Below, piece by piece: positions 20,208 to 54,140 of a stretch of 64,000 nucleotides of DNA (position 1 is its first letter; each line of letters starts with the position of its first letter). The notes under the pieces are model-generated. The model ran no database searches and was not told the DNA's origin. It saw nothing but the letters and a program-made list of their open reading frames with translations. The position numbers and the translations under genes were made by a program. Origin of the DNA: an uncultured Eubacteriales bacterium (lineage in GTDB: Bacteria; Bacillota; Clostridia; Lachnospirales; Lachnospiraceae); contig CASFBK010000004.1 in the NCBI GenBank assembly GCA_949292785.1, forward strand, positions 124,001-188,000, in the 5' to 3' direction.

Positions 20208-20255
20208 TTGCGAAAAGAAACAATGTATGTTACAGTTGGTTAGTCGCAGCTAATT
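20208..20255 (+). promoter_or_regulatory. Probable promoter and operator of the biosynthetic cluster
   Basis: TTGCGA (20208-20213), 17-base spacer, TACAGT (20231-20236), then GGTTAG (20238-20243), six bases, CTAATT (20250-20255). The GGTTAG-N6-CTAAyy element overlaps the expected start of transcription and recurs at 22852 before the ABC transporter genes. The hexamers are also the half-sites of DtxR/IdeR boxes, though those have a 1-base gap. It may bind a metal-dependent repressor. Confidence 0.55.
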
Positions 20256-20294
20256 ACTGCATAGAGTATTGACAGGCGGAGGTGAAGGCAAAGG

Positions 20295-22070
20295 ATGCAG
20301 TATCGTTTAGAAGAAAGGGCAGAAAAGAGTCTTACGCAGATTTTTGATTCCGTAGCAAAGAAGTATCCGGAAAAAATAGCGGTAAAAGCAGGTACGAATC
20401 AGATTTCTTACGGTGAATTGGACCGGAGAAGCAACCAGGTAGCACATATGCTGCACGAAAAGGGAGTAGGCGAAGACGATATTGTCGCAATCTTTGTGGA
20501 TAAATCTATTCATACAATTACTTGTATTTTAGGTATCTTAAAGGCAGGAGCGGCATATCTTCCGGTTGATATTTTGCTGCCAAACAGTAGGATTAAATAT
20601 ATGCTGGGGAATGGAAATGCAAGGTTCATCATGAATACAGAGCTTGCAGGGCATGAGATACAGCAGTTGCTGGCGGAGTGTGCAATTCCTGTGGTTTCGA
20701 ATCATGAGTGGAACGGGTGCTCTGAGGATGATGTGGACTGGCGCAGAGGAACCAATACACTAGCATATGTGATGTATACCTCTGGTTCGGAGGGTAAGCC
20801 CAAGGGTGTGATGATAGAAGACCGGGGAATTATAAGACTGGTAGCAGACGAGGAGTATTTTCCTTTTTGCAGTGACTGGAATATATTACAGAGTTCAACG
20901 TTGGTTTTCGACGCATCCGTTTTTGAGGTATACGGCGCATTATTAAATGGGGCAACGCTGCATTTGATGGATACCGAGACATTGTTAAATGGAGAGAGCT
21001 TGAAGGAATGGCTGGCGAAGCAGCCCATAGATGTGATGTTTCTTACAACACCTTTATTCCATCAGTTAGTTCATGTAGATGTGAGCATCTTTGATTCAGT
21101 ACATAATCTGGTGGTAGGTGGAGATGTACTGCTTGCAAAGCAGGCGGGAAAACTGAAGGAATACAATCCGAAGATTCGGTTGTTCAATGGATACGGACCT
21201 ACGGAGAACACCACATTTTCAACCTTTTATGAGGTGCCTGCAGAGGTTTCGGAAAATGTACCTATTGGGAAACCTATCAGTTCTTCTACGGCATACATAT
21301 GGGATGCGCAAAATAAGCCGGTAAAGAATGGCGAGACAGGAGAACTGTATGTCGGCGGAGAAGGCGTTGGTCGTGGATATATCAATGACGAGAAGCTGAC
21401 GGAACAGAAATTTTTAACACATCCGGATACGGGGGAACGATTGTATCGGACTGGTGATTTGGCACGATGGAAAAAGGACGGCAATATTGAATTTGTCGGA
21501 CGTGCGGATACACAGATTAAGATGAGGGGATTTCGAATTGAACTTCAAGAAATTCAAAAGGCGGTAAATGGATTGCACGCAGTCAGGGAATGCGTGGTTT
21601 TGTGCGAGACCTGTGAGGAAGAAAAAACGCTGACAGCGTATCTTGTTTTACAGGAGGAAATTGAGCGGGAAGCGCTGCAAGAGCAATTACAAAGAATACT
21701 GCCATCTTATATGATTCCCAATGAAATTATTATTGTAAAGTACCTTCCATTAAATTTAAATGGAAAAATAGATAAACATCAATTAGCGCAGATAAAACAG
21801 CAGCAAAAGATGCAGATGCAACAGCAAGAGGTTCTGCAGGAACCGAAAACAGAGGAAAATAAGGTAACGGCTATTCTAAAGGAACAGCTGAAGCGAAGCG
21901 TCTCTTTGGAGAACAATCTATATGAAATTGGCTTTAACTCCATTACTGCGGTAAAGGTTCTGTCCGCCTTTCGTAAACAGGGCTATGCAGTCGGTATTAA
22001 GGAGATTTTGAGTGTGAGAACCGTACGGGATATGGTAAATATGGTTCTACAAAAGCGGAGTGCGGAATAA
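20295..22070 (+). CDS. NRPS module A-PCP, valine-like specificity
   Basis: 591 residues. Adenylation domain to about 485 with YTSGSEGKPKG (A3, about 160), NGYGPTENTT (A5), YRTGDLARW (A7) and NGKIDKHQL (A10), then a carrier domain with the phosphopantetheine serine at 549 (YEIGFNSIT). The binding-pocket residues, aligned by eye to GrsA, read D-A-F-F-V-G-G-T-F, seven of nine matching the known valine code DAFWIGGTF. An aliphatic amino acid is the likely substrate. Being A-PCP without condensation domain it is a candidate loading module. First gene of the cluster, 99 bases after the exosortase operon. Confidence 0.88.
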   Translation: MQYRLEERAEKSLTQIFDSVAKKYPEKIAVKAGTNQISYGELDRRSNQVAHMLHEKGVGEDDIVAIFVDKSIHTITCILGILKAGAAYLPVDILLPNSRIKYMLGNGNARFIMNTELAGHEIQQLLAECAIPVVSNHEWNGCSEDDVDWRRGTNTLAYVMYTSGSEGKPKGVMIEDRGIIRLVADEEYFPFCSDWNILQSSTLVFDASVFEVYGALLNGATLHLMDTETLLNGESLKEWLAKQPIDVMFLTTPLFHQLVHVDVSIFDSVHNLVVGGDVLLAKQAGKLKEYNPKIRLFNGYGPTENTTFSTFYEVPAEVSENVPIGKPISSSTAYIWDAQNKPVKNGETGELYVGGEGVGRGYINDEKLTEQKFLTHPDTGERLYRTGDLARWKKDGNIEFVGRADTQIKMRGFRIELQEIQKAVNGLHAVRECVVLCETCEEEKTLTAYLVLQEEIEREALQEQLQRILPSYMIPNEIIIVKYLPLNLNGKIDKHQLAQIKQQQKMQMQQQEVLQEPKTEENKVTAILKEQLKRSVSLENNLYEIGFNSITAVKVLSAFRKQGYAVGIKEILSVRTVRDMVNMVLQKRSAE

Positions 22071-22088
22071 ATAAGACAAGGAGTGTAT

Positions 22089-22829
22089 ATGCAGAATTTA
22101 TTTTTTGATGAGGTGGACTTTAGCGGGAAAAAGCTTATTTTAATCTGTGTGCCTTATGGTGGTGGATGGAGTACCATTTTTAACAGCTGGGAACCGTATT
22201 TAGAACCGGAAATTGCATTGCTATCGGCGAAGTTTCCGGGACGGGGAGAGCGAATGGAGGAACCGTCCTATGAAAATATGCAGGAGCTGGTACAGGAAAT
22301 CAGTCCTGTGATTGGGGCATATGAGCTTCCGATTGTATTTTACGGCGGTTGCTTTGGCGGATTGTGTGCCTATGAGATAATCAAAGAATTGCAGGAGACT
22401 TACCATAAAAAAGTAAAGCATTTTTTTACCAATTCCCTGATTAGTCCAAGGTATATTGAGGAAAAAGTATTTCTCAGTCAATGGTCAAAAGAAGAATTAG
22501 CCAATGAATTACTGCGGCGGGGGGAACTGCCGGAGGAAGTTCTTGAAGATGAGGAAGTATTGGAATTTCTGTTGCCGGGAATACGTGCGGATTATAAAAT
22601 CTATGAAAACTATCGATATCAGGAAAAGGGGAAAATTAATGTGGATATGAGTATATTTTATAATGATAGTGCAGCGCTTCGGCAGGAAGCGGATAAGGAT
22701 TGGGAAGATTTAATACAGGGCAGCTGTGAAAGAATCCCTATGGCATGTGATAATTTGTTTGCGGCGGAATCTCAGATAGAGATTGCAAAACAGATAAATA
22801 GTAAGTTGAAGCAGCTTTACCTGAATTAA
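22089..22829 (+). CDS. Type II thioesterase-like protein with altered catalytic residues
   Basis: 246 residues from the ATG at 22089 (AAGGAG 5 bases before). Alpha/beta hydrolase of the GrsT/YbtT type: VPYGGGWSTIFNSWEPYL, KFPGRGERMEEP. The nucleophile elbow reads YGGCFGG, placing Cys88 where family members have Ser in GHSMGG. The usual histidine motif (GNHFFIE in the second thioesterase of this cluster) aligns by eye with CDNLFAAE, so His looks replaced by Asn. Either the enzyme uses another mechanism or it is a non-catalytic binding protein. Type II thioesterases normally clear wrong acyl groups from carrier domains. Confidence 0.8.
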   Translation: MQNLFFDEVDFSGKKLILICVPYGGGWSTIFNSWEPYLEPEIALLSAKFPGRGERMEEPSYENMQELVQEISPVIGAYELPIVFYGGCFGGLCAYEIIKELQETYHKKVKHFFTNSLISPRYIEEKVFLSQWSKEELANELLRRGELPEEVLEDEEVLEFLLPGIRADYKIYENYRYQEKGKINVDMSIFYNDSAALRQEADKDWEDLIQGSCERIPMACDNLFAAESQIEIAKQINSKLKQLYLN

Positions 22830-22851
22830 ACAGCAAATTTTTTTAATGCAG

Positions 22852-22869: not shown

Positions 22870-22886
22870 AGAGGAAGGAGAAAAAG

Positions 22887-24635
22887 GTGGAAAAGGAAGT
22901 AAAAAAAGAGAAAGTAGGGGTACAGTATTTATTCTCGTTGGCGGGCAGGGATAATAAACGCTCGCTGTATATTGCAATTTTTTTGAGCAGTCTGTCTGGA
23001 ATTGCTTCGTTCGTACCCTATGTGATGGTATTTCGGACGATTCTGCTTTTGTTTCAGGATGATGTAAAGACGGGGAAAGTCATTACTTATGGCGTGATTG
23101 CAGTCGCAGCAATTTTGGTTCGTTTTCTGTTGCAGGCGGCTTCCATGGCAATGACTCATATCGGAGCGTATGATGTTTTGTATGCAGTAAGAAAAAGGCT
23201 ATGTAATCATATTGGACAGATTAATCTTGGTTTTTACACAGATAACAGTACCGGAGAGATTAAGAAAGTTCTGATGGAGGATGTGGAACGATTAGAAAAG
23301 TTTTTGGCACATCAGATTCCGGATATTACTGTGGCAATCGTAGTACCCATTACGGTGTTGATTTATTTGTTTACCGTAAATGTGCCGATGTCTCTTATTC
23401 TGATTGTGCCGATTATTTTGACCTTTGTAATACAGGCGGTGGAAATGGCCATTGCAAAGCCGGTGCTGGGAAAGATACCAAAGGTACTTGGAAGATTGAA
23501 CTCCGGCATCATGCAGTTCGTCAATGGAATGACAGTCATGAAGACCTATAATGTAACTGCCAATTCTTATAAAGAGTATTCCGAAGCAGTCAATGATTAC
23601 AATGATTTGTGGGTAAAGACAGCGAAGGTATTGGCGCCCATAAGCAGTATTGCCAAAGTGTTAATTGAATCGGGAATATTTTTTGCCTTACCGCTGGGCG
23701 GTTATCTCTACTTAAAGGGAAGTTTAGAGCTTGGAGAATATATCTTTTTTATCATAATGAGTATCGTGTTTCTTTCTTCTTATAATAACATTCTTAATTT
23801 TGCACAGATTTTCAGTCAGATTTCTTCTGGAATTGAGCGTGTGAAAGAAGTAATGGATGCGGAAGAAATTCACGGTGGCAGCCAGGAAGTAAGAACGGAG
23901 GATGGATATGAGGTTGCTTTTGACAAGGTTGGATTTTCCTATGACAATAAGCAGCAGATTTTAGAAGATGTAGATATCAAAATGCCAAAGGGGACGTTGA
24001 CCGCATTTGTGGGAGCCTCCGGCGCAGGAAAAACCACTGCCGCTCAGTTGATTCCCCGATTTTGGGATACTGTTACCGGCAAAATTACAATTAACGGTGT
24101 AGATATCAAAGAACTTCCTACCGAAAAACTGATGGATATGCTGTCCTTTGTATTTCAGGAAGCCTTTATGTTAAACGATACCATTTATCAGAATATTGCC
24201 ATTGGAAAAGAAAATGCTGTGCAGCAAGAAGTAGAAGAAGCAGCAAAAGCCGCCCAGATACATGATTTTATTATGAGTCTTCCAAATGGATATGAGACCC
24301 ATCTGGGAGAAAACGGAGTGAAGCTGTCGGGCGGAGAAAAGCAGAGAATCTGTATTGCAAGAGCCATTTTAAAGAATGCTCCCATTATTATTTTTGATGA
24401 GGCGACCAGCTTTACCGATGGCGAAAATGAACATAAGATTCAGATGGCGTTGGACCGCTTGTTGAAAGGGAAGACAACAATTATGATTGCCCACAGATTA
24501 CATACGATTATAAATGCGGATCAGATATGTGTATTTCAGGAGGGTAAAATTGTAGAAAAAGGAACCCATACAGAACTATTAGAACAACAGGGAATTTACA
24601 ACCGGATGTGGAATGATTATACTGCGCAGGAATAG
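22887..24635 (+). CDS. ABC transporter, membrane domain fused to ATPase (YbtP/IrtA-like half)
   Basis: 582 residues from a GTG start (AAGGAG 6 bases before). Six helices in residues 1-310 in the exporter-type fold, then an ATPase with Walker A GASGAGKTT near 376, LSGGEKQR near 479 and Walker B IIIFDEATS. The D-loop reads SFTDGENE in place of the usual SALDAENE, a kind of change I associate with the YbtP/YbtQ and IrtA/IrtB half-transporters. Those use an exporter fold to import metal-siderophore complexes. It forms a pair with the next gene. Direction of transport cannot be proven from sequence; export of the product is the alternative. Confidence 0.85.
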   Translation: MEKEVKKEKVGVQYLFSLAGRDNKRSLYIAIFLSSLSGIASFVPYVMVFRTILLLFQDDVKTGKVITYGVIAVAAILVRFLLQAASMAMTHIGAYDVLYAVRKRLCNHIGQINLGFYTDNSTGEIKKVLMEDVERLEKFLAHQIPDITVAIVVPITVLIYLFTVNVPMSLILIVPIILTFVIQAVEMAIAKPVLGKIPKVLGRLNSGIMQFVNGMTVMKTYNVTANSYKEYSEAVNDYNDLWVKTAKVLAPISSIAKVLIESGIFFALPLGGYLYLKGSLELGEYIFFIIMSIVFLSSYNNILNFAQIFSQISSGIERVKEVMDAEEIHGGSQEVRTEDGYEVAFDKVGFSYDNKQQILEDVDIKMPKGTLTAFVGASGAGKTTAAQLIPRFWDTVTGKITINGVDIKELPTEKLMDMLSFVFQEAFMLNDTIYQNIAIGKENAVQQEVEEAAKAAQIHDFIMSLPNGYETHLGENGVKLSGGEKQRICIARAILKNAPIIIFDEATSFTDGENEHKIQMALDRLLKGKTTIMIAHRLHTIINADQICVFQEGKIVEKGTHTELLEQQGIYNRMWNDYTAQE

Positions 24636-24650: not shown

Positions 24651-26402
24651 ATGATTCAATATATAAAAAGACTTGTGGGAGAAGATGCCAAGAAGCTGAT
24701 TTGTCCCATCGCGTTATCTATCTTAGATTCCTTATTTAATTCCTGTATGTACGGCGTCATGCTGTTTACATTGATTGACTTATCCAATGGGGAATTTTCC
24801 GGGCAGGATTTGCTGACGTATACTTTGGTATTGGCAGGTATTTTTGTAATTCGATGTGTTCTGCAGGCAATCAGCTTTACACAGGCACAGTGTCTTGGAC
24901 CGCAGGTATCCAGAAAGTTAAGGCTTGAGGTGGGAAATCATATCCGCAAGCTGAATCTTGGATTCTTTACCAAAAATAGTATCGGTAAGCTAAATAGCGT
25001 ACTGTTGTCTGACATCAGCGATTATGAGGTGATTATTACCCATTGTCTTTGCGATTTTATCAAGGTAGTGTCCTTTACGGTGATGTCGCTGTTGTTTGCC
25101 TTTGTCATTAATTGGAAGTATGGTCTGGTAATGCTTCTTCTTATTGTGCTTGCACTGCCGTTGCTGCTGAAATCAGGAAAGGTATCGGGAAAAAAGGCAG
25201 GGCAGCTTCGAAAGACGAACCAAAATGTAATTTCCCGATTAGTGGAATATGTAAACGGAATCAAAACCTTTCGGCTCTATAATCTGACAGGTAGTAAGTT
25301 TGCGCGTTTGAACCATGAACTGCAGACGCTCCGCAAGGATTCCATCAGTTCTGAAATTGCGGTAATGCCGCTTGCTTTAAGCTTTTATGCCATTACCTCA
25401 CTGATTGTTCCGGTTACGCTGATTATGGGGGGATATCTTTATGCAGCAGGTGAAATAGAGATTGTGAGATTTTTAATTATCCTTTTGCTTTCGGTTTCCC
25501 TGGCAAATATTATGGGGGCCTTAAGTTCTATTTACCCTCAGATAAAATCTATTACAAAGGCATCGGAAAACATATGCAATGTATTAGATGAAAAACCGTT
25601 TTCTTTTGAGGAAGAAAAGAAGCAATTAACAAGCTTTGATATTGCATTTTCCAAGGTGGATTTTGCCTATGAAAAGAATGTCCCGATTCTTAAAAATGTG
25701 TCTTTTGAGGCAAAACAGGGAACCACGACAGCGCTGATTGGACCTTCCGGTTCCGGTAAGACTACGATTGTAAGTCTGCTGGCAAGATTCTGGGATACCA
25801 CAGGAGGAACCATTTCGGTTGGAGGTGTGGACATTAAAAAGATTTCACCGGATGTTCTGACAAAGTATATGGCGATTGTCTTTCAGGAGGTCTATCTTTT
25901 AAATGATACCATTATGAACAATATCAGAATCGGACGTCCCGAAGCAACGGACGAAGAAGTATTTGAGGCAGCAAAGGCAGCACGTTGCCATGAGTTTATC
26001 ACAAAAATGGAGAAAGGCTATGAAACGGTAATCGGAGAAGGCGGCTCTACGCTGTCGGGCGGAGAAAAGCAGAGAATCTCTATTGCCAGAGCGCTGTTAA
26101 AGGATGCGCCTATCGTATTGCTGGATGAGACGACTTCTAATCTGGATGCGGATAACGAGAAAGACATTCAGCGGGCTTTTGACCGACTGATGAAAGAAAA
26201 GACGGTGTTAGTCATTGCCCACCGGTTGAATACCATACGAAATGCCGATAACATTCTGGTACTGGAAAAGGGTGTTATCAAGGAGGAAGGAACCCATGAA
26301 CAGCTGCTGGCAGAGCAGGGTTGGTATTATGGCATCTGCCAGGAACAGGAAAAAGCAAGAGAATGGAAAATTAAATCAGACCAAGGAGGATGTTTTGCAT
26401 GA
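24651..26402 (+). CDS. ABC transporter, membrane domain fused to ATPase (YbtQ/IrtB-like half)
   Basis: 583 residues, similar in length and layout to the previous protein: six helices, then Walker A GPSGSGKTT near 366, LSGGEKQR near 467, Walker B IVLLDETTS and a standard D-loop SNLDADNE. The two D-loops differ, suggesting a heterodimer with unequal ATP sites. It starts 15 bases after its partner and its TGA overlaps the start of the ECF S-component gene. Together with the ECF genes it makes up a transport cassette inside the cluster, of a kind also found in the equibactin locus of Streptococcus equi. Confidence 0.85.
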   Translation: MIQYIKRLVGEDAKKLICPIALSILDSLFNSCMYGVMLFTLIDLSNGEFSGQDLLTYTLVLAGIFVIRCVLQAISFTQAQCLGPQVSRKLRLEVGNHIRKLNLGFFTKNSIGKLNSVLLSDISDYEVIITHCLCDFIKVVSFTVMSLLFAFVINWKYGLVMLLLIVLALPLLLKSGKVSGKKAGQLRKTNQNVISRLVEYVNGIKTFRLYNLTGSKFARLNHELQTLRKDSISSEIAVMPLALSFYAITSLIVPVTLIMGGYLYAAGEIEIVRFLIILLLSVSLANIMGALSSIYPQIKSITKASENICNVLDEKPFSFEEEKKQLTSFDIAFSKVDFAYEKNVPILKNVSFEAKQGTTTALIGPSGSGKTTIVSLLARFWDTTGGTISVGGVDIKKISPDVLTKYMAIVFQEVYLLNDTIMNNIRIGRPEATDEEVFEAAKAARCHEFITKMEKGYETVIGEGGSTLSGGEKQRISIARALLKDAPIVLLDETTSNLDADNEKDIQRAFDRLMKEKTVLVIAHRLNTIRNADNILVLEKGVIKEEGTHEQLLAEQGWYYGICQEQEKAREWKIKSDQGGCFA

Positions 26403-26989
26403 AAAGTGAAAAATTAAATTCAAAAGATTATATTACATTGGGAATCTACAGTGCGATTTCATTTGTGATTATGTTGATTGCAGGTATTACAAATTTATCA
26501 CCCTATACTTATCTGTTATACCCGATTACATATGCATTATTCAACGGGGTGCTCTATCTGTATATCGTGACAAAAATACCGAAAAAGGGCGCCATTGTGC
26601 TGATGAATATTGTACCTATTTTATATCTTGCATTTACAGGCGTGCAGGGAATTATCTCAGCGCTGTCCATCCTGATATTTGCGTTGATTGCAGAGCTCAT
26701 TGTGGGCAATAACAGAACGGACAGAAGAAAGATTCTGGTGTCTTACCTTGTGTTTACCGCATGGGCGTCCTGCGGAGGGGAATATCGCTTTTTCCTGTTT
26801 CCGGAAGGATATTTTGCAGAGGCATTAAAATCTGGTCTGGACCCGGCATATGTTGACGCCCTGCGCAGCTTTGTGGATTTCCGCTGGTGGATTGGCACGA
26901 TTGCTGCGACTCTTGTTGCGTCCTTTTTGGGAATAAAGCTTGGAGAAGTCATTGTGAAAAAGCATTTGAAAAAGGCAGGAGTTTTATAA
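26399..26989 (+). CDS. ECF transporter substrate-binding component, MptD family
   Basis: 196 residues from the ATG at 26399 (AAGGAGG before it; start and previous stop overlap as ATGA). Five or six helices: ITLGIYSAISFVIMLIAG at the start, a central pair, and a C-terminal helix. The arrangement and the opening sequence match the MptD-type S components that appear with siderophore-like gene clusters in Firmicutes. The S component decides the substrate. With the next two genes it completes an energy-coupling-factor transporter. Substrate, possibly a metal chelate or a biosynthetic precursor, is inferred only. Confidence 0.78.
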   Translation: MKSEKLNSKDYITLGIYSAISFVIMLIAGITNLSPYTYLLYPITYALFNGVLYLYIVTKIPKKGAIVLMNIVPILYLAFTGVQGIISALSILIFALIAELIVGNNRTDRRKILVSYLVFTAWASCGGEYRFFLFPEGYFAEALKSGLDPAYVDALRSFVDFRWWIGTIAATLVASFLGIKLGEVIVKKHLKKAGVL

Positions 26990-27684
26990 TGCGATTTGAT
27001 ATCAGAAGTGAATTGGTACTCCTGTGTGGCGTAAATATCAGCGTATTTTTATTTAATCATCTTCTGATGGAGGCGGTGTGTATTGCACTGGTCTTTTTCG
27101 TGCAATGTATAACAGGAAGAAAAAACGGAGCATGGAAAATGGTGCTGGTATATGGGGTATTTGTAGGCATACAGATATATCTCTTACCTCTTTTGCCGGG
27201 GCTTGCCAGAGCTGTCGTATCTGTTCCGGTGGTACAGTTTCGGAAAATGTTTCCGCTGCTGATGGTGTTCATTTTGATTATTCGCACAACGAAAGTAAGC
27301 GAAATCATTGCCACCATGGAACGGATGCATGTTTCGAAATCCATTACGGTAAGTCTGGCGGTTACCATTCGTTACTTCCCGACCATGTTTGAAGAATGGG
27401 TAAGTATTCGGGAGGCAATGAGTATTCGGAGAATATCTGTCTTTCATATCAATCCGGTAAAATTGGTAAAGCGCATTGTGCAGTTCTATATGGTGCCGCT
27501 GCTGATTTCGGCTACCAAAACCATTGACGAGCTTTCTGCGGCTGCGGTTACCAGAGGCATTGACAATCCGGGAGAGCGAAGCTGTTGGAAATACCGGGGC
27601 ATGGGAATTGCAGATGGCGTGTTGATTGCGGTATCGGTGTGCCTGATAATTTTTGCAGTACAAAATAGGGTAAATATCATATGA
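26989..27684 (+). CDS. ECF transporter transmembrane component (T)
   Basis: 231 residues from the ATG at 26989, which overlaps the TAA of the S-component gene by one base. Several helices and the two conserved coupling segments: SIREAMSIRRI near 140 and AAAVTRGIDNPG near 190, the Ala-Arg-Gly type motif by which T components contact the ATPase. It links the S component to the ATPase. The following ATPase gene overlaps its end by 4 bases. Confidence 0.85.
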   Translation: MRFDIRSELVLLCGVNISVFLFNHLLMEAVCIALVFFVQCITGRKNGAWKMVLVYGVFVGIQIYLLPLLPGLARAVVSVPVVQFRKMFPLLMVFILIIRTTKVSEIIATMERMHVSKSITVSLAVTIRYFPTMFEEWVSIREAMSIRRISVFHINPVKLVKRIVQFYMVPLLISATKTIDELSAAAVTRGIDNPGERSCWKYRGMGIADGVLIAVSVCLIIFAVQNRVNII

Positions 27685-29141
27685 AGAACATAAAGAAATA
27701 TCAAGAGAAATGCATAGAAATGAAGCAGGTCAGCTTTCAATACGAAAATGGGAAAAAAGAAAGCATAAAGGATGTAAATCTGACCATACATAAGGGGGAA
27801 TGTGTGCTCCTCTGCGGAAAAAGCGGCTGCGGAAAAACAACCATTACCAGGCTGATAAATGGTCTGATTCCATACTGTGAAACAGGAGAAAAGACCGGAG
27901 AAGTTCTGGTGCTTGGAAAACCGGTGGAAGAACAGCCGTTGTATGAGCTGTCCAAGGTGGTGTCCAGCGTGTTCCAAAATCCCAAGTCGCAGTTTTTCAA
28001 TGTGGAGCCGGAAAGTGAGCTTGCATTTGCCTTAGAAAATGAAAATATGCCGGGAGAGCAGATTACACAGCGCATTGAGCAGGTGGTGCAGGAATTGGGG
28101 ATAGAGTCCCTGATGCACAAGAATCTGTTTCAGATGTCGGGAGGCGAAAAGCAGATGATTGCCATTGGAAGCGCTTATGCAGCAGACCCGGAAATCATTG
28201 TGCTGGATGAACCCTCTGCCAACCTGGATATAGAGACCATAAAAGTGCTTACGGGGATTCTGGAAAAAATCAAGGCGGCAGGAAAGACCATCGTCATTGC
28301 AGAACACCGTCTTTCTTATTTAGAACCAATACTGGATACCGTGTATTATCTGGATGAGGGCAGAATCCTTGAGCGTTTCTCAAAGGAAGCATTTTTTCAG
28401 ATAGATGCTGCGAAAAGAAAGGAGATGGGACTGCGGAATTTAGATACGCACCATAGGTTTTCCTGCAAGCAAAAGGAGGTCAGCCTGGGAGGGGAAAAAC
28501 AGCTCAGTCTGCGAAATGTTCACATAGCATTTGAGAAAAAAACATTGTTTGAAAACATCGGTCTTGAGCTGAAATCGGGACAAATTGTTGCCCTGACCGG
28601 AAAAAACGGAAGAGGAAAGACCACCCTCTCCCGGATAATCTGCGGCTTGGAAAAGCACGGAAAAGGTGAAATTTTGTGGAATGGAGTAAGAACAAAACCC
28701 AAACAGCGCAAAAGATTCAGCTATGTTGTGATGCAGGATGTGAATCACCAGTTATTTGCCGAAAGCGTAGAAGAAGAATGTTTTTTGGGAAATGAGGGAG
28801 TGACACAGGAAGAAATAGAGACAGTCTTAGAAAGTCTGATGCTGTCAGAGCAGGCAAAGTCCCATCCCCAATGTCTCTCCGGCGGGCAAAAGCAAAGGCT
28901 GGCAGTGGCAGTTGCCCTGTTGGCACAAAAAGATATCCTGCTGTTCGATGAGCCGACCAGTGGATTGGATTATTGTAATATGAGAAATGTGGGCGGCATC
29001 CTGCGAAAGCTTGCCAATCAGGGAAAGGTGGTACTGGTAGTGACTCACGATTTGGAATTTATTGAGGAAGTATGTGATTGCTGTTATTGCCTGAATCAGG
29101 AGGGAATCAGGGACATTAGTAAAGAGATAAGGTTAAGTTAG
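27681..29141 (+). CDS. ECF transporter ATPase, two fused ABC domains
   Basis: 486 residues holding two ATPase domains. First: Walker A CGKSGCGKTT near 50, MSGGEKQM near 154, LDEPSANLD. Second: Walker A TGKNGRGKTT near 308, LSGGQKQR near 395, FDEPTSGLD. Fused A-A' proteins power ECF importers. The gene overlaps the T component by 4 bases and ends 14 bases before the thioesterase-NRPS gene, so transport and synthesis genes lie in one transcription unit. Confidence 0.9.
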   Translation: MKNIKKYQEKCIEMKQVSFQYENGKKESIKDVNLTIHKGECVLLCGKSGCGKTTITRLINGLIPYCETGEKTGEVLVLGKPVEEQPLYELSKVVSSVFQNPKSQFFNVEPESELAFALENENMPGEQITQRIEQVVQELGIESLMHKNLFQMSGGEKQMIAIGSAYAADPEIIVLDEPSANLDIETIKVLTGILEKIKAAGKTIVIAEHRLSYLEPILDTVYYLDEGRILERFSKEAFFQIDAAKRKEMGLRNLDTHHRFSCKQKEVSLGGEKQLSLRNVHIAFEKKTLFENIGLELKSGQIVALTGKNGRGKTTLSRIICGLEKHGKGEILWNGVRTKPKQRKRFSYVVMQDVNHQLFAESVEEECFLGNEGVTQEEIETVLESLMLSEQAKSHPQCLSGGQKQRLAVAVALLAQKDILLFDEPTSGLDYCNMRNVGGILRKLANQGKVVLVVTHDLEFIEEVCDCCYCLNQEGIRDISKEIRLS

Positions 29142-44459: not shown

Positions 44460-44461
44460 AA

Positions 44462-46000: not shown

Positions 46001-49000
46001 ATGGAGCTTTGCAGGTTATCAGGGGAGACCTGGAATCAGAGGTTTTCTCGCATTACAAAGCAGTTTGCGGATAAAACGGCAATCATTGAGGAAAACCGGA
46101 GCATTACCTATGGTGAGTTGAATCGAAAGGCGAACCGTTTGGCAGGAATCCTGCGGGAGGAAGGAATTGCAGGAAGTGGACGAGTTGCAATTATGATGAA
46201 TAATTCCATAGAGGCAGTCACTGCAATTATGGCAGTCTTAAAAGCAGGCGGTTCTTATGTGCCCATTAATCCCAAGGATGCACCGGAGCGGAAGAAAAGA
46301 ATTTTAAAGGATAGTGAGAGCCGGATTCTCATTATCAGTAAACAGAAAGAGGACGCGGGGATAGACGTACCCAAAGCCTTAGTTTATGAAGATATCAATT
46401 TCGATATATCTTGTGCGGAGTTTAAAGACCTGAATCAGCCGGAGGACGAAGCTTATCTTTTATATACTTCAGGCTCCACCGGAACCCCGAAAGGGGCAGT
46501 AATTACCCATAATAATGTGTGTCGGCAGATGGAAGGAATTACAAATCAGTATGGCTTTACCGATGGAGACGTATGGACACAGTTTCATACCATCTGCTTT
46601 GATTTTTCCGTGCTGGAGATTTTTGGCTGCTTATACAGCGGAGGAACTCTGCTCATTGTACCGGAACATTTAAAATATAACAGTCAGCTATTCATGGATT
46701 TTATCACACAGTATCAGGTCACAGTGCTGGGGCTGGTGCCATCTGTGCTATATCGTATTCCGGTGGAAAAAATCTCCGGAGCCGGCTTGCGGCTGCACAC
46801 AATGATTCTGGGCGGTGAGAAGCTAAGCTTCTCTAAGCTGAAAGGGTGGTTTGAAAAGCTGCCGGAGCTTCGCATCGTAAATGGATATGGATTAACAGAA
46901 ACCACGATTTTTAATATGGGAAAAACCATAACAAGGGATATGCCGGAAAGTACAATCAGCAGCATTGGGCAGGTATTTTCGCCAAACCAGGTATGCATTG
47001 TAGAAAACGGACAGATATTGGGCGTTGGTGAGACCGGAGAAATCTGTCTGGGCGGGCCTGTCATTTCCCCCGGTTATTGGAAGAATCCCCAATTAAATGA
47101 ACAAAGGTACATCAAACTAAAGGAACGGGGGAATGAGAGGTTCTTTCGCACCGGGGATTTGGGAAGACTTCTGGAAAACGGAGAAATTGAATTTATCGGA
47201 AGAGCAGATAATCAGGTGAAGATTCGTGGATTTCGTGTAGAGATAGAGGAAGTAGAAAACAGATTACGACTTTGTGAGCTGGTAAAGGATGTTGCGGTTA
47301 AAACGTCCGCGGATGCCTCTCAGCTATGGTGTTTTGCGGTATTAAAGGCAGGAGATAAAAAGGCATTGCAGGAGTATGCCGCAAAAAATCTCCCGCCTTA
47401 TATGGTACCGGCGCGATGGGTCCTGCTGGAAGAACTTCCCCTGACAGAACGGGGAAAGGTAGACAAATCAAAACTGACACTGGAAGAGCGGGAAGGCTTT
47501 TTAGAAGAATACGTTCCTTGTACCACAGAAACGGAGCGGGAGCTTCTTTCCATATGGCAGGCGGATTTTCCGGAGGTAAAGATTGGTGTCAGGGATTCTT
47601 ATTATGAATTAGGGGGCAATTCCTTGTCTGTAATCAATATGTTGGAGCAGGCAGGAAGACGGTATCAGACGGAGCTTTCTTTAGTGGAATTTATGCAGGA
47701 GCCTACGATATATGGGTTAAGCTGCAAACTGGAGCAGTCAAAAATGAGCGGTAACAGCACCCAGACGGAAAAGAGCATCTCTTTTGGTAAATATGGAGAA
47801 ATCTATCCCATGACGGATTTGCAGCAGGCATTTTTTATCGGAAGACAGACCGATGTGGAATTGGGAAACTGCGCCTCTCATAGCTATGCTGAAATCAGAT
47901 GTCAGCATTATGATGGAGAAAAATTCCGTCAGGTGTTAGATACCTTAATCCATCGGCATGACCTTTTGCGTTGTTATTTTGACGAATTTGGAAATCATCA
48001 TATTATGCCCTCTCTTACATATGACATACCCCTGCATGATTTTTCCAAAGAGGAAAAGGAAGGGCAGCAGCAGAAAATACAAGAAGTGCGAAACCGTATG
48101 GAAAATATGATTTTAGATTATACGAAGGCGCCTCTTGCCAGAGTGGAAGTCAGCCTTATGGGGAATGGAGAAGCATTGATACATTTCTATATGGATGCGC
48201 TTATTGCAGACGGCTGGAGTCATGAATTGCTGTTATATGAAGCAGACCAGCTGTATAGCGGGGAACAAAAGGAGCTTTCGCCCTTAGCGTTTCATTATGG
48301 AGACTTTGTGGAATACACGGAAAGGGTAAAGGAGACTGAAAAGTATAAAAAAGCGCGGGAATTCTGGTTAAGTAAAATCCCACAATTACCGGAAAACCCC
48401 ATGCTTCCGGTAAAGAAAAAGACGTTTCAGGGAAAAGAAATTGCAAGTGAACAGCGCCGAAAGGTAATTCGGTGGGATATTTGGAGAAAAATTGAAGCAG
48501 CAGCCAATGCCATGGGCTTATCTGCGTTTGTTGTGTCTTTTACGGCGTTTTGTAAAGTAATTGCAAGATATAGTAAAAATCAACGGTTCGTAATTAATCT
48601 TCCGGTTTCGAACCGTCCCAATGTTCACCCGGATATGAACCGAATGGTAGGTGTATGCTCCAACTTCTTCCTGTTTGATTATGAAAATCTTGCCGGAGAA
48701 ACGCTGTTTGATACGGCAAAGCGTGTACAAAAGCAGATGTGGACATTAAAGGAGAATGATTCCTTTAATGGAAATGAAATTATTCGGGAAATATACAAGG
48801 AATCCGGCAAGGTCGGAAGCTTTGTGGCGACCATCGTATTTACCAGTTTGCTGGACATACCATTTCCCCCTCAAAAGAATCTGGAACGGGTATATTTAGA
48901 GACCCATACCAGCCAAATCTGGATGGATACGGTTCTAATGAGTGACTCGGAGGGTGTTTCTTTTAATTGTGATTTTGTGAAGGGCTTGTTGGAAAAAGAC

Positions 49001-52000
49001 CTTGTAAATCAAATGATGGGGGACTGGGTGCAGTTGTTAGAACAGCTGGCACAGAATAAAGCGTCCTGGGAACATATCACAGCCCTCGAACTGCCGCAGC
49101 AGCAAAAAGAACTTTGGGAAAAGAATAATCTGACACAAATGGAACTGCCGAAGGATTCTGTTTTTTCCTGTTTTTTAAAGAAGGTAAGAGAAAACCCACA
49201 GCAGACAGCAATCGCAACCATTGATACAGTGCTGACTTATCAGGAACTATATGAAAGAATGTTGTGCATCAATCAGCAGTTAGAGGGAACAAAGCCCGGA
49301 GAAGCAGTTGCAGTTGTTACCAATAAGTCATGGTATCAGGTAACGGCAGTGTTAGCCATCCTTTCAAGAGGGGGCAGTTATGTACCTGTTGATGAAGCGT
49401 TTCCGGCAAAAACAATAGAGCACTGCATGAAGATTTCCGGTGCCAGCGTTTGTCTGACCGATAATGAGAACCAGAATAAGGTGCAGAGTATTTCAGGGGT
49501 GCGTGCAGTGAATGTAGAAGCGCTGTCCTATACAGATGGAAGCGACGCACAGCTTGTTCTGACCACACCGGAGGAGGAGCTTGCAATTATATTTACCTCA
49601 GGAACAACCGGTATGCCAAAAGGAATACGTTTAAAGCAAATGGGCGTTTTAAACTCTGTGAAGTTTACCAATGAGCGTTATCGGGTAGGGGCAAAGGACC
49701 GGGCATTGGCGTTGACGAATCTTTGTCATGATATGTCTATGTATGATATCTTTGGTATGCTTGCCGCCGGGGGAACTATCGTGATTCCGGAAAAAGAAGG
49801 AGCGAGAGAGCCACAGCACTGGATGAAGCTGATGAGAAAATATCAAGTCACTGTGTTTAACTCCGTTCCGGCATTTGCAGAAATGTTGTTTGTACAGGAG
49901 GCAGAAGCAGTAAAGGAAAGTACAAGACATATGCGTCTTGTCATTCACGGAGGAGACTTTTTAAAACCATCTTTAGCAGAGCACTGGCTTTCATTAAGTG
50001 AAACATTGCAGCTGGTAAACGTAGGAGGACCTACAGAGACCAGTCTTTGGAGCGTTTATCATGATGTGACCAAGGAGGAGGCAGCGTCGGGAAATATTCC
50101 TTATGGAAAGCCCATTGCGAATATGAAGCATTATATTTTGAATGATATTCAGGAAGAAGTTCCTTTGGGGGTAATTGGAACCATTTATTCGGAGGGCGTC
50201 GGACTTGCCGTAGAATATGTGGGACAGCCGGAATTGACGAAAGAAAAGTTTATTTACCATCAGGGAAAACGTCTGTTTCAGACAGGAGATTTGGGCTATT
50301 ATTCGCCCGAGGGAGAGCTGATAATTTGCGGAAGAGATGATAATCAGATTAAGATAAACGGAAAGCGCATTGAGTTAGAAGAAATTGAAAAGCAGGCAGA
50401 CGGTCTGACAGAGATAGAAGCATCCTGCGTTGTTTATCAAAAGATGCATAAGAAGCTGGTACTGTATTATAAGGGAAGTCATGAATTGGAAAAATCCGTC
50501 ATACAGACCAGGCTGGAAAAGAAACTTCCCCACTATATGATTCCTTCCGTTTGTATTCGTTTAGATGACCTTCCTCTTACCAGAAACGGTAAGATAAATA
50601 GAAGGCATCTGGCAGAGCAGAAGTTAGAGGAGCCAAAGCTAACCAAAGAACAGACACAGCACTATCAGGATGCATTGGAGGAGGACATTTATGGAGAAGC
50701 CGCCAGACTGTTGGGAAGAACCTCCATAAGCAAGGGGGCAAACTTTTTTATGGAGGGCGGAAATTCTATTCTTGCCATCCGACTGCTGGCTTATCTCAAA
50801 CAAAAATATGGTGTAATGATTGGCTTAGGAGAAATCTTTTCCAATCCCTGCATGGATACCTGGCATGACCTGGTTGTAGAACGAAAGCAGTCAGGAGATA
50901 GTGAAAAAGCCACTTCTGCGGATGAGCTGAATGAAAAGCACATTCCGTTAAGTCCGGCTCAGTCAGGAATCTGGTTTTATGAAAATATCAGCGTTTCGCC
51001 CAAGTATACGGTATGCGCATATATGAAACTGGCAGGAAAGATAGATGTGCACCGGTTGACCGAAGCACTTTGTGGCATTTTAGAGGAGCATTCTGTATTT
51101 CAGCTTAATTATGCTGCCGATGAAAAGGGCGTGCCTTACCAGTTCGTCAATACCCACGACCTTAGTAAATGCGTGGAATATGTTAAGGTACACAGCGAGA
51201 AAGAAGCAGCCCGTATTTTGCAGGAAGAGGCAGCGTATAAGTTTGACATAAAAAAGGAACCGCTGTGCAGATTTCGGATTGTGCAGGTGAATCCGGAGCT
51301 TCATTATCTGATTACCGTAGTACATCATCTGATTACCGATGAGACGTCAGTGGAGCTGTTAGCAAAGGAAATAATGGGGCGGTATCAGGGAAAAGTGTCT
51401 GCACAAAAAAAGGATATGTCTTATTTGAAATACTGTATACATAAAAGCGGCATAACCTGTGACGCTTCCTATTGGAGAAAAATATTTCATGCCATTGATT
51501 TACAGGAAATGGATTTCGTCAGAGCACAGGAGCCAGAAGTCTTTGAAGATGAAAGAGGGTGTATTGATTTTACAATCACGAAGGAAATGGCAGAGAGCCT
51601 GAAGGGAATCTGTCAGCGAAAAGGGTGTACGACCTTCAGTGCGCTTTACAGCCTTTATATGGCAGCACTTTATCTTCATACAGGAAAACCTTGTATCGCA
51701 ACGGTTTCTACATATTCAGACCGCATGGAGGCAGCATATGCCAATGCTTATGGGATGTTTGTCTATAACCAGTGCGTTGTTTATCAGGCAGCGCTTCAGG
51801 ATACTTTAAGCACACTGATGGATAAAATAAAGGAACAGATTTTGCAGATATATCATATGCCGTTGTGTTCTTTTAATGATATTATCCGGGAATTGGAGCT
51901 TCCCTCGGAGTACCTGGAGCTTCAAAATCATCAGGTGTTTACCTATGTTGACAATGACCGGGCATCTGTTTCTTGCCAGAAGATAAAAGCAACGCCTGTT

Positions 52001-52267
52001 GAGATTGTAAAAAAGGTAAATGACGTAAATCTGGATATGCTGATTGAGCGGTTGGATGGACAATTAATAGGTCATCTCTACTATTCTTACCGTTATCTTT
52101 CTAAAGAACAGGCAGAGCAGTTATTACATCAATTTCAAAGTCTTATCAAGAATGGGCTGCGTCAGCTGGATGACTTGCTTTTGAACCTCATAGAAGAGGA
52201 AGAAGGTGAAGCCAAAAGAAAAGTAGAATCAAAGGACGTATTGGAGCTGGAAGAAGATTTATTTTAA
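46001..52267 (+). CDS. NRPS A-PCP-Cy-A-PCP-C
   Basis: 2088 residues. A1 (about 10-490) with YTSGSTGTPKG and pocket D-F-L-G-I-G-G-I-F, unassigned. PCP1 with Ser541 (ELGGNSLS). Heterocyclization domain (about 600-1035): YPMTDLQQAFFIGR and DALIADGWS (D732-D737-S740). A2 (about 1060-1540) with FTSGTTGMPKG and pocket D-M-Y-N-I-G-V-L-W, close to cysteine codes of the DLYN type. PCP2 with Ser1589 (MEGGNSIL). C-terminal condensation domain with HHLITDETS at 1775-1783, where the Gly after Asp1780 is Glu. No thioesterase follows, so this last domain may release or condense the product. Largest enzyme of the cluster. Confidence 0.92.
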   Translation: MELCRLSGETWNQRFSRITKQFADKTAIIEENRSITYGELNRKANRLAGILREEGIAGSGRVAIMMNNSIEAVTAIMAVLKAGGSYVPINPKDAPERKKRILKDSESRILIISKQKEDAGIDVPKALVYEDINFDISCAEFKDLNQPEDEAYLLYTSGSTGTPKGAVITHNNVCRQMEGITNQYGFTDGDVWTQFHTICFDFSVLEIFGCLYSGGTLLIVPEHLKYNSQLFMDFITQYQVTVLGLVPSVLYRIPVEKISGAGLRLHTMILGGEKLSFSKLKGWFEKLPELRIVNGYGLTETTIFNMGKTITRDMPESTISSIGQVFSPNQVCIVENGQILGVGETGEICLGGPVISPGYWKNPQLNEQRYIKLKERGNERFFRTGDLGRLLENGEIEFIGRADNQVKIRGFRVEIEEVENRLRLCELVKDVAVKTSADASQLWCFAVLKAGDKKALQEYAAKNLPPYMVPARWVLLEELPLTERGKVDKSKLTLEEREGFLEEYVPCTTETERELLSIWQADFPEVKIGVRDSYYELGGNSLSVINMLEQAGRRYQTELSLVEFMQEPTIYGLSCKLEQSKMSGNSTQTEKSISFGKYGEIYPMTDLQQAFFIGRQTDVELGNCASHSYAEIRCQHYDGEKFRQVLDTLIHRHDLLRCYFDEFGNHHIMPSLTYDIPLHDFSKEEKEGQQQKIQEVRNRMENMILDYTKAPLARVEVSLMGNGEALIHFYMDALIADGWSHELLLYEADQLYSGEQKELSPLAFHYGDFVEYTERVKETEKYKKAREFWLSKIPQLPENPMLPVKKKTFQGKEIASEQRRKVIRWDIWRKIEAAANAMGLSAFVVSFTAFCKVIARYSKNQRFVINLPVSNRPNVHPDMNRMVGVCSNFFLFDYENLAGETLFDTAKRVQKQMWTLKENDSFNGNEIIREIYKESGKVGSFVATIVFTSLLDIPFPPQKNLERVYLETHTSQIWMDTVLMSDSEGVSFNCDFVKGLLEKDLVNQMMGDWVQLLEQLAQNKASWEHITALELPQQQKELWEKNNLTQMELPKDSVFSCFLKKVRENPQQTAIATIDTVLTYQELYERMLCINQQLEGTKPGEAVAVVTNKSWYQVTAVLAILSRGGSYVPVDEAFPAKTIEHCMKISGASVCLTDNENQNKVQSISGVRAVNVEALSYTDGSDAQLVLTTPEEELAIIFTSGTTGMPKGIRLKQMGVLNSVKFTNERYRVGAKDRALALTNLCHDMSMYDIFGMLAAGGTIVIPEKEGAREPQHWMKLMRKYQVTVFNSVPAFAEMLFVQEAEAVKESTRHMRLVIHGGDFLKPSLAEHWLSLSETLQLVNVGGPTETSLWSVYHDVTKEEAASGNIPYGKPIANMKHYILNDIQEEVPLGVIGTIYSEGVGLAVEYVGQPELTKEKFIYHQGKRLFQTGDLGYYSPEGELIICGRDDNQIKINGKRIELEEIEKQADGLTEIEASCVVYQKMHKKLVLYYKGSHELEKSVIQTRLEKKLPHYMIPSVCIRLDDLPLTRNGKINRRHLAEQKLEEPKLTKEQTQHYQDALEEDIYGEAARLLGRTSISKGANFFMEGGNSILAIRLLAYLKQKYGVMIGLGEIFSNPCMDTWHDLVVERKQSGDSEKATSADELNEKHIPLSPAQSGIWFYENISVSPKYTVCAYMKLAGKIDVHRLTEALCGILEEHSVFQLNYAADEKGVPYQFVNTHDLSKCVEYVKVHSEKEAARILQEEAAYKFDIKKEPLCRFRIVQVNPELHYLITVVHHLITDETSVELLAKEIMGRYQGKVSAQKKDMSYLKYCIHKSGITCDASYWRKIFHAIDLQEMDFVRAQEPEVFEDERGCIDFTITKEMAESLKGICQRKGCTTFSALYSLYMAALYLHTGKPCIATVSTYSDRMEAAYANAYGMFVYNQCVVYQAALQDTLSTLMDKIKEQILQIYHMPLCSFNDIIRELELPSEYLELQNHQVFTYVDNDRASVSCQKIKATPVEIVKKVNDVNLDMLIERLDGQLIGHLYYSYRYLSKEQAEQLLHQFQSLIKNGLRQLDDLLLNLIEEEEGEAKRKVESKDVLELEEDLF

Positions 52268-52305
52268 GTAAGAAATTAAGAAATATAATATAGGAAAGGA
52301 ACCGT

Positions 52306-53481
52306 ATGGAAAAAGAGAAAGAAGTATGGACTTGCGGATGGGGAGTGACGCTGACCGATTATGCAAAGGCTGGTCTGAATACCCAACATTACAAACAAAA
52401 AATCCGCATAAAAAATAATATCAGAGGAAGCGCATTACGGCTGCAGTTCTCCCACAAGTATGGAAGAGAAGCGCTTTTGTTTCAAAAAGTAAATCTGTCT
52501 ATTAATGATGGAAAGAAAATTCCGGTTACACAAAAGGGTGAGGAAGCCATAAGGTCAGACGCCTTTCGTATTTCATATAGTGATGAAATAAAAGCGGAGG
52601 TAGCGCCCGGAGACACCATTACGATTGAGGCTGTATTAGCAGAACATACCGTTGTGACAGATGCCGCATTGATTCCAAACACCAGTCTTTTTCAGCTTGA
52701 GTCAGAGGGAGAACTAATATGTGAAGAGGATGAGGAGTATAAAAAGGAGTTTCGGGCGATACCCCAGGAGTTTCATTGGTTAGTTGGAATCAGCGGGATA
52801 GAAGTAGGTACGAAAGAAGCCGTTCCCATGCTGGCGTTTTTTGGCGATTCTCTGATACAGATTCCGTATTGGATTTCCCACCTTATGGACCGGGCATTTC
52901 AACAGTGTCCGGGGAAGCTCACCTATAAAAACGGTGGAATCAGTGGGAATCGTCTCTTGTCAGGAACGGTAGAACTCGCCAAAGACATTGGCAGTATGAA
53001 TGGAGCGGCAGGCATACAGCGCATGGAACAGGATATTTTTGCCGGACAGGCGCCGGAGTGGGTGGTGATTTTGGAGGGGATTAATGATATCATTTTGCCG
53101 TTCCAATATGGAAAGCTAAGAGAACTGCCCAAAAGCGAGAATATCATTGATGGTCTTAAGCAGTGCGCAGCACTTTGCCAGCAGCATAACAGCAAAGCCA
53201 TTCTTTGTACCTTACTGCCCTTTCAGGGGCATAACTGCTGGAACGGCATCAGTGAAAAGATAAGACAGGAGGTAAACCAGTGGATTCGCCAGCAGGGAGA
53301 GATTGCTTATCTGGATACGGATGCATATGCGGCAGACACGGAGAATCAGCGATGTTTAAAGGCACAGTGGAGGGAAGCGGATGGTCTGCACTTAAATTCC
53401 TTTGGAGGGAAAAGTCTGGCAGAAGAAATTTTAAAATCAGAGGTTATCAAATCAATTTTAGACTTACAGGGCGCTTATTGA
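52306..53481 (+). CDS. SGNH/GDSL hydrolase
   Basis: 391 residues. A beta-rich N-terminal domain (about 1-165) precedes an SGNH fold with all blocks: FFGDSLIQIP (Ser nucleophile), NGGISGNRLLS, LEGINDIIL and ADGLHLNSFG (Asp-x-x-His). No signal peptide, so it acts inside the cell. Family members hydrolyse esters or acyl groups. In this setting it might trim an acyl group from the product or open an ester to free metal, as siderophore esterases do; this is inference. It starts 38 bases after the last NRPS gene and its end overlaps the convergent phosphopantetheinyl transferase gene by 7 bases. Confidence 0.87.
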   Translation: MEKEKEVWTCGWGVTLTDYAKAGLNTQHYKQKIRIKNNIRGSALRLQFSHKYGREALLFQKVNLSINDGKKIPVTQKGEEAIRSDAFRISYSDEIKAEVAPGDTITIEAVLAEHTVVTDAALIPNTSLFQLESEGELICEEDEEYKKEFRAIPQEFHWLVGISGIEVGTKEAVPMLAFFGDSLIQIPYWISHLMDRAFQQCPGKLTYKNGGISGNRLLSGTVELAKDIGSMNGAAGIQRMEQDIFAGQAPEWVVILEGINDIILPFQYGKLRELPKSENIIDGLKQCAALCQQHNSKAILCTLLPFQGHNCWNGISEKIRQEVNQWIRQQGEIAYLDTDAYAADTENQRCLKAQWREADGLHLNSFGGKSLAEEILKSEVIKSILDLQGAY

Positions 53482-54140
53482 GAAAATAGGCGTCCTGTAA
53501 AAAATGCAAAGACATCTTTGGTAGAAACTTGCTGAGGAAGCGGCGGAGCTGTAAAATTTCCGCAGACAGAACAGATGTAACGGTCTGTTTCCCAGCTATG
53601 GAGCGAGGCGGCAATAGAAGGTTCTAAGGTATTAATATTCGTTAGGTCACAGACAAGTCCGGTGCCATTTCGCTTGGTATATGCTTCCTTTCGGGTCCAG
53701 ACTTTGAAAAAGCGTTTCTGCTTTTCTGTATTGGTTGCAGAAGAAATATATGCAATTTCTTCCGGATGAAATACCATATCCATAATTTGATAAGGAGCTT
53801 CTCCTGTTATTTCAATATCCGCCCCTACCGCACTATCAGCAGATACACAGCACAAAACTCCATTTCTGGTATGGGAAAAGCTGAAATCAATAGAAGAATC
53901 GGTAAGAAGCACAGGCTTATGATTTTCCTTATAGTCAAATTGCAGTTCATTCATGGTGAGGGGCGTATGCGTTAAAAGTGCCATACGGGTAAGAAGAGCA
54001 GCATAGAGCGAAAGCTTTCGGTCAGCCGTGTGAACATAACGCAAAATACGTGCATGACGTTCCGGTGAAATATAAGATAACAGTATTTCCTCCTCGGGTG
54101 TCCAGGCATCTGAGAAAAAGGATAAAAAATAGGTGTACAT
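53475..54140 (-). CDS. Sfp-type 4'-phosphopantetheinyl transferase
   Basis: 221 residues. Motifs: PVLLTDSSIDFSFSHTRNG (CoA-binding region), VGADIEITGEAP (metal-binding Asp and Glu) and FFKVWTRKEAYTKRNGTGL (the WxxKEA signature). It transfers phosphopantetheine from CoA onto the carrier-domain serines, so it should activate the nine carriers of the cluster. It is the only cluster gene on the minus strand and its stop region overlaps the SGNH gene by 7 bases, marking the right edge of the cluster. Confidence 0.93.
   Translation of the reverse strand: MYTYFLSFFSDAWTPEEEILLSYISPERHARILRYVHTADRKLSLYAALLTRMALLTHTPLTMNELQFDYKENHKPVLLTDSSIDFSFSHTRNGVLCCVSADSAVGADIEITGEAPYQIMDMVFHPEEIAYISSATNTEKQKRFFKVWTRKEAYTKRNGTGLVCDLTNINTLEPSIAASLHSWETDRYICSVCGNFTAPPLPQQVSTKDVFAFFTGRLFSQ

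Follow-up and report, generated by a model that had tools for sequence, protein, structure and literature searches.

Locus and domain content

We analysed a 64,000-nucleotide stretch (the window) of contig CASFBK010000004.1 from an uncultured Eubacteriales bacterium of the Lachnospiraceae, in which Pfam scans define a hybrid nonribosomal peptide synthetase/polyketide synthase (NRPS/PKS) cluster, comprising a co-directional run of forward-strand genes at 20295-53481 and a convergent phosphopantetheinyl transferase (PPTase) gene extending to 54140 (Table 1). By open reading frame (ORF) coordinates, consecutive forward genes are spaced by -103 to +57 bp. Directly in the sequence lie two heterocyclization (Cy) domains, cysteine-type adenylation (A) codes, a domain of C-methyltransferase (MT) type, two ketosynthase-acyl carrier protein (KS-ACP) modules lacking an acyltransferase (AT), the PPTase, and a cassette that joins a pair of ABC half-transporters to energy-coupling factor (ECF) genes. 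The cluster is a thiazoline NRPS/PKS of a known kind that is new in its make-up, with a relative in Ruminococcus albus 8. Whether it constitutes an intact-looking operon for a single peptide-polyketide with two cysteine-derived thiazoline rings is, in our judgement, evenly poised; the peptide-polyketide product would probably be secreted.

An earlier note on this DNA had listed two Cy domains, two A codes, an embedded methyltransferase, two ketosynthases, a YbtPQ-like ABC pair and an ECF transporter, and each of these was recovered. The Cy domains occur one each in P0004 and P0007, two separate proteins. The A code DLYNFSLIW belongs to P0004 and specifies cysteine; DMYNIGVLW belongs to the second A domain (A2) of P0007, is of cysteine type, and recurs unchanged in a metagenome-assembled genome (MAG) of R. 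flavefaciens. The methyltransferase embedded in P0004 could be specified as the C-methyltransferase type; it carries S-adenosylmethionine and His/Glu motifs, and its nearest PDB entry is CurJ (5e-44), the Cy-A portion being closest to BmdB. Among the relatives compared, this methyltransferase is nearest to that of a Cy-A-MT protein from a KS-containing synthetase (34%; genome G799). The ketosynthases are those of P0002 and P0003, the latter ranking 7zma and PksL first in the PDB. Neither module contains an AT, a feature of trans-AT (AT-less) PKS; the sole AT-family match in the whole genome is FabD, whose neighbours, read by eye, are acpP-fabK-fabD-fabG-fabF, and that search brought up no trans-AT dedicated to the cluster, inside it or nearby. 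The ABC pair and the ECF genes form one five-gene cassette inside the run.

The earlier note did not list the free carrier protein, and its statement that a terminal thioesterase (TE) is missing needs an addition: two thioesterase-type domains were found, one fused and one stand-alone. That at the N-terminus of P0001 is RifR-like and intact, with GHSMG and GNHFF motifs, and is followed by a condensation (C) domain with the core HHMFGDG. In the stand-alone protein (22083-22829), alignment shows GGCFG in place of GHSxG, with Cys for the catalytic Ser, and an altered His motif from which the catalytic His has gone; because of these changes its activity is doubtful.

The remaining adenylating enzymes are more varied. 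P0009, an A-peptidyl carrier protein (PCP) didomain, has the code DAFFVGGTF, for which we take the substrate class to be Val-like aliphatic, and its top NCBIfam model is AusA (544 bits, far under the whole-protein cut-off). The stand-alone P0006 is closest in the PDB to the CoA ligases FadD13, 4-coumarate ligase and succinylbenzoate ligase. The ORF of P0003, whose C core reads SHLIADG, opens at 33833, and the ATG at 33902 is preceded by AGGAGG. The N-terminal region of about 260 residues in P0005 (41904-42740) matched no Pfam family. Half a C domain, or a condensation remnant, is possible there but gained no support: our own profile found nothing, a lax Pfam search gave nothing notable, and the AlphaFold model had a mean pLDDT of 34.6.

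Table 1. Genes of the cluster, with positions in the window and the basis for each assignment.
Feature	Position	Strand	Basis
P0009: A-PCP didomain, code DAFFVGGTF	20295..22070	+	Pfam
Type II thioesterase-like protein, stand-alone	22083..22829	+	Pfam; alignment
ABC half-transporter 1, permease-ATPase fusion	22887..24635	+	Pfam; 63% to G958 copy
ABC half-transporter 2, permease-ATPase fusion	24651..26402	+	Pfam; 59% to G958 copy
ECF S component, Trep_Strep/MptD family	26390..26989	+	Pfam; NCBIfam TIGR02185 above cut-off
ECF T component, CbiQ family	26989..27684	+	Pfam; ORF from 26887, ATG 26989 preferred
Double ECF ATPase	27681..29141	+	Pfam; NCBIfam; relatives
P0001: TE-C-PCP without A domain	29156..31579	+	Pfam; PDB; alignment; C core
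P0002: KS - AT-less linker - ACP	31594..33891	+	Pfam; catalytic motifs; KS tree
P0003: KS - AT-less linker - ACP - C	33902..37465	+	Pfam; PDB
Free carrier protein, 74 aa, LGGNS	37478..37702	+	Pfam PP-binding 2e-15
P0004: Cy - A with embedded C-methyltransferase - PCP	37712..41980	+	Pfam; PDB BmdB, CurJ; motifs
P0005: N-terminal ~260 residues - A (DAKNVGVDL) - PCP	41904..44459	+	Pfam
P0006: acyl/aryl-CoA ligase-like adenylating enzyme, stand-alone	44447..45976	+	Pfam; PDB
P0007: A-PCP-Cy-A-PCP-C	46001..52267	+	Pfam; BmdB order in the available text of PMC8795117
SGNH/GDSL hydrolase, possible release or processing enzyme	52306..53481	+	Pfam; PDB
Sfp/AusB-like 4'-phosphopantetheinyl transferase	53475..54140	-	Pfam; NCBIfam below cut-off

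A related cluster in Ruminococcus albus 8

Relatives were gathered by a contig scan covering 84,980 species, each represented by a single genome, with an alignment of P0003 and its homologue from genome G709 and with two short patterns; the same scan with P0003 alone returned none. The scan yielded 301 relatives, and the results below rest on the best 80 of these, among which identity reached at most about 32% across P0003 and 49% across its KS. A scan of this design misses any ortholog that has neither pattern. The best relative lies on contig00064 of R. albus 8 (NZ_ADKM02000110.1, 117-25263), where the gene order is ECF ATPase, TE, A-PCP-Cy-A-PCP-Cy-A-PCP-C (3065 aa), A-PCP, KS-ACP, C-A-ketoreductase (KR)-PCP-PCP and KS-ACP-C, followed by genes without a convincing NRPS/PKS match. 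The two middle condensation domains of the large synthetase were assigned as Cy by their similarity to the Cy of P0007; the first has the DxxxxDxxS motif (DAMTADGHS) and the second was not picked up by the pattern.

The two clusters share the pair of KS-ACP and KS-ACP-C proteins (KS 41% and 48% identical), a lone A-PCP with a DAKN-type code (DAKNMGVSV in R. albus 8 versus DAKNVGVDL in P0005), an A-PCP-Cy-A-PCP...-C synthetase, a TE, an adjoining ECF ATPase and the want of an AT. The ECF ATPase is 45% identical and stands at the contig edge, which hides any remaining transporter genes. They differ in that R. albus 8 has two Cy-A modules in a single protein, both with the code DMFNFGVLW, and C-A-KR-PCP-PCP instead of C-PCP, while neither a Cy-A-MT protein nor a ligase of the P0006 type was seen within its 25 kb. 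The first A code of R. albus 8 lacks the amino-acid Asp.

For phylogeny we took 235 KS domains, from these loci and three others, and kept, for each KS of the window, its 40 closest; once the overlap between the two sets was removed, 72 rows remained, to which the window's own two KS were added. The KS of P0003 falls in a clade (100/100) with only R. albus 8, R. flavefaciens MAGs, a Ruminococcus MAG and [Clostridium] aminophilum. The KS of P0002 and the remaining KS from that R. albus 8 cluster are sisters (100/99) with long branches. As the loci were collected by way of P0003, P0002 may have closer relatives. One R. flavefaciens MAG has A-PCP-Cy-A-PCP-Cy-A-PCP with the codes DLYNFGVMW and DMYNIGVLW, and the Ruminococcus MAG encodes Cy-A modules together with a P0006-like ligase (32%); an ECF cassette was not seen on the contigs of either. 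We found no published study of the R. albus 8 cluster in the open-access literature. The relative supplies a second, culturable organism in which to hunt for the compound.

Proposed assembly and release

The earlier note described a domain order that is not collinear; this holds, and comparison with the R. albus 8 cluster helps to make sense of the order. Mapping the window proteins onto the R. albus 8 gene order suggests the assembly sequence P0007, P0005, P0002, P0001, P0003, free PCP, P0004, ending in a 4-methylthiazoline, an order that employs every Cy, C and KS once. P0007 would load a starter amino acid and form the first thiazoline, and its terminal C domain would pass the chain to P0005 (A-PCP). 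P0002 would then add a malonyl unit and P0001 (C-PCP) a residue charged in trans by P0009 or P0006; P0003 would contribute a second malonyl unit, its C domain handing the chain to the free carrier. P0009 and P0006 may charge either P0001 or the free carrier in trans, and FabD may provide the malonyl groups, also in trans. P0004 is placed last because the C-terminal C domain of P0003 directly precedes the free carrier and P0004; it would add cysteine, cyclize it and C-methylate it to leave the terminal 4-methylthiazoline. Yersiniabactin likewise ends in a C-methylated thiazoline. Release could be effected in trans by the thioesterase of P0001, or by the SGNH hydrolase.

Three features tell against this scheme: it rests on one relative that shares part of the modules only, no counterpart of P0004 or P0006 was seen in the R. 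albus 8 cluster, and P0001 has no A domain of its own.

Comparison with known systems

The claim that the combination matches no known assembly line agrees with our searches, in which no matching line was found; nor did we find a report of the window cluster in the open-access literature. Yersiniabactin offers a comparable logic, with a KS module in HMWP1/HMWP2 upstream of a terminal Cy with C-methyltransferase, as proposed for the window. The window departs from that system in having two KS modules, and a cis AT, a KR, an aryl cap, a reductase and a terminal TE were not found in the window. Features of the equibactin and yersiniabactin type are present in P0004, a Cy-A(Cys) protein with embedded MT, and in the pair of fused ABC half-transporters accompanied by ECF-type import genes.

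Equibactin is made by eqbA-N of Streptococcus equi, and similar loci are described for Clostridium kluyveri and C. difficile RT023 in the available parts of PMC3672683 and PMC6814731. Set against those published descriptions only, the window is the same in kind in its Cy-A(Cys) synthetase with an MT/E-type domain, YbtPQ-like ABC pair with an import trio, PPTase and TE-type genes. It differs in its AT-less KS modules and ordinary C domains, and we found in it no salicylate ligase, aryl carrier protein fusion, thiazoline reductase or DtxR-type regulator of the sort these descriptions give. The Cy-A-MT-PCP protein, transport cassette, PPTase and TE-type genes common in kind to both would suit a diverged siderophore system of the equibactin/yersiniabactin type from which the aryl cap, the reductase and the terminal thioesterase have disappeared, but we consider such an origin very improbable. 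The two AT-less KS fall together with those of the R. albus 8 cluster, where a P0007-like synthetase is also present; no match to a thiazoline reductase was obtained; and the full-length identity of P0004 to Cy-A-MT-PCP proteins of other genomes (29-35%) lies below that to the best Cy-A-only proteins (40-41%).

P0007 invites a separate comparison, since its domain order A-PCP-Cy-A-PCP-C is that of the bacillamide synthetase BmdB, so far as this is set out in the available text of PMC8795117. P0007 alone might then be a bacillamide-type synthetase whose product, a small thiazoline amide, is released by transfer to a free amine, for which a terminal TE would be unnecessary, the remaining operon making a second product. 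We think this very unlikely: P0007 sits in a larger operon, the Pfam scans of the window gave no family of the BmdC (thiazoline oxidase) or BmdA (decarboxylase) kind, and in R. albus 8 the P0007-like protein is directly followed by the A-PCP and KS-ACP genes.

A precedent for the malonyl supply is the barnesin A NRPS-PKS of Sulfurospirillum barnesii, an anaerobe, for which the accessible part of PMC13096860 reports FabD acting as trans-AT on an AT-less PKS and a PPTase of its own. According to the same part of that paper, barnesin A has a KR-dehydratase module, a starter C domain and TE release, unlike the window, and thiazoline is not mentioned there.

Transport cassette and possible metal binding

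The earlier note called the pathway a metallophore pathway. What stands is the thiazoline-type hybrid NRPS/PKS and the frequent proximity of the cassette's ECF ATPase to Cy-A-MT-PCP synthetases; a metal-binding product is not established. The ATPase lies within 17 kb of such synthetases in 8 of 10 sampled genomes, the window's own not counted, that have a full-length Cy-A-MT-PCP match (G799 and G1023 being the exceptions), and in 0 of 6 where the match is Cy-A only (Fisher p 0.007). The scoring took in no more than two NRPS and four ECF candidates from each genome, a maximum reached by the Cy-A-only G964, and the genomes are related and hence not independent. Two of these loci, in G1112 and G903, are of siderophore type, because they carry Irp3-like thiazoline reductases. 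An ORF of G520 considered as a saccharopine dehydrogenase proved weakly NmrA-like, and only the one in G1112 was counted.

In favour of metal binding are the thiazolines, the C-methylated thiazoline, the cassette and the ECF ATPase beside the R. albus 8 cluster. We put at about even the chance of a product that binds iron, zinc or copper ions and is brought back into the cell, as the metal complex, by the cassette. Functional evidence for such import comes from S. equi, where iron import by way of equibactin requires eqbHIJ and where eqbKL are similar to YbtPQ, in the portion of PMC3672683 available. Here we assume that eqbHIJ correspond to the ECF trio of the window.

Several results count on the other side. 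A Fur-like pattern matched 66 times in the window against 51.6 expected, a mild excess (1 of 100 shuffles reached 66), with none of these matches in the promoter gap (20196-20294), and the genes of the run showed no regulator of the metal type. In line with the earlier note, no salicylate synthase scored above cut-off anywhere in the genome, and no thiazolinyl reductase was found, since the Irp3-like reductases of G1112 and G903 gave no six-frame match at E 1e-3. A search for an aryl-acid ligase gave generic adenylating-enzyme similarity only, at 21-33% to four ligases of neighbouring NRPS loci, two of which are AMP-binding enzymes by Pfam and whose aryl specificity is assumed. None of the known chelator pathways in the antiSMASH metallophore rule, as given in the available text of PMC12971057, appeared among the Pfam-scanned ORFs of the window, and VibH was not seen there either. 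The best Cy-A matches of P0004 (40-41%) are to proteins of Cy-A-only genomes without the cassette nearby. Furthermore, the cassette is not specific to NRPS loci. Its ECF ATPase is common, being found at E 1e-80 or better in 43 of 391 class genomes (own included); the closest cassette found, that of G958 (ABC pair 59-63%), stands alone next to a TetR gene, and the 98 kb around it gave no NRPS/PKS match; and three further complete five-gene cassettes (L090, L091, L106) occupy positions 1-54000 of contig C9 of the window's own genome, where no condensation domain was found.

The repeated cassettes suggest that several chelates of foreign origin, or other ligands, are taken up. More ABC half-transporters occur on C9 and on C22, and genome-wide there are 18 matches to ABC half-transporter 1 at E 1e-70, own copy included. 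If the product is a metallophore, the cassette repeated in its own genome would gain a substrate.

The same transport genes admit a different function for the product, namely a thiazoline peptide-polyketide antibiotic or enzyme inhibitor, with the ABC pair exporting it or protecting the cell and the ECF genes taking up a nutrient or chelate unconnected with it. Fused ABC half-transporters may act in export, and the NCBIfam models that score highest on this pair describe exporters, with none reaching its cut-off; the cassette occurs alone elsewhere in the genome, and the run was found to hold no metal regulator. Barnesin A, itself an anaerobe NRPS-PKS product with FabD supply, is a protease inhibitor in the part of PMC13096860 available. 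We regard this function as possible but doubtful, since a complete five-gene cassette, beyond the ABC pair, has been retained within the operon, similar cassettes adjoin Cy-A-MT synthetases in other genomes, and the R. albus 8 cluster also adjoins an ECF ATPase.

Returning to metal binding, we propose tentatively, and at rather less than even probability, that the clusters of the window and of R. albus 8 belong to a metallophore lineage, so far undescribed, of gut and rumen anaerobes, in which thiazolines made by the core and polyketide oxygens would bind the metal, no known capping chelators being involved, on an AT-less line fed by FabD and with recovery by the ECF and ABC genes. To our knowledge, few natural products are known from strict gut and rumen anaerobes. 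A predicted siderophore is called a rare occurrence in anaerobes in the accessible text of PMC6814731. By its authors' account, in the part of PMC12971057 available, core-made thiazolines fall outside the NRP-metallophore rule, and for this reason the rule would probably not call the present cluster. A core-made thiazoline chelator would escape current genome mining by that rule, and the proposed lineage, if real, would be invisible to present metallophore-detection rules.

Distribution and genomic setting

The spread of the cluster was assessed in sets of genomes that, for family and order, are samples. P0001 (E 1e-60) was matched in one of 397 family genomes, its own, and P0003 (E 1e-100) in two of 392 order genomes, its own and G709; in the genus, a KS match at E 1e-40 came from 2 of 29 genomes, the second being G718 (KS 36-39%). 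In a plasmid collection, P0003, P0004 and the KS-ACP-C protein of R. albus 8 were matched only at <60% identity.

On its left the cluster is flanked by genes for ribosomal S6, SSB and S18 and by an exosortase/PTPS-related group, and on its right by gdpP, L9 and dnaB. All 29 genus genomes contain gdpP, and its surroundings were inspected in 4 of the 28 siblings, complete from S18 to gdpP in G719, G722 and G176 and on the gdpP side only in G724; no NRPS/PKS gene was found at the site in these four. S18 adjoins gdpP in G719, and in G722, G176 and G724 all or some of the exosortase/PTPS group is present. From its spread and from these sites, the cluster looks like an addition at species or strain level, or a survivor of losses. 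In the window this group (11054-20195) consists of an exosortase-like gene, a PTPS-family gene, a glycosyltransferase and large PTPS-related membrane proteins, and it or a part of it is at the site in three of the four sisters. Between S18 and gdpP of G722 (L222, 8773-9528) lies a PPTase gene whose product is 67% identical to that of the window, possibly the remnant of a lost cluster.

In G935 (L051), a TE-like match, a P0006-like ligase (33%) and a Cy-A match (39%) stand side by side, with no cassette found nearby; this locus is possibly an acyl-thiazoline pathway of another kind.

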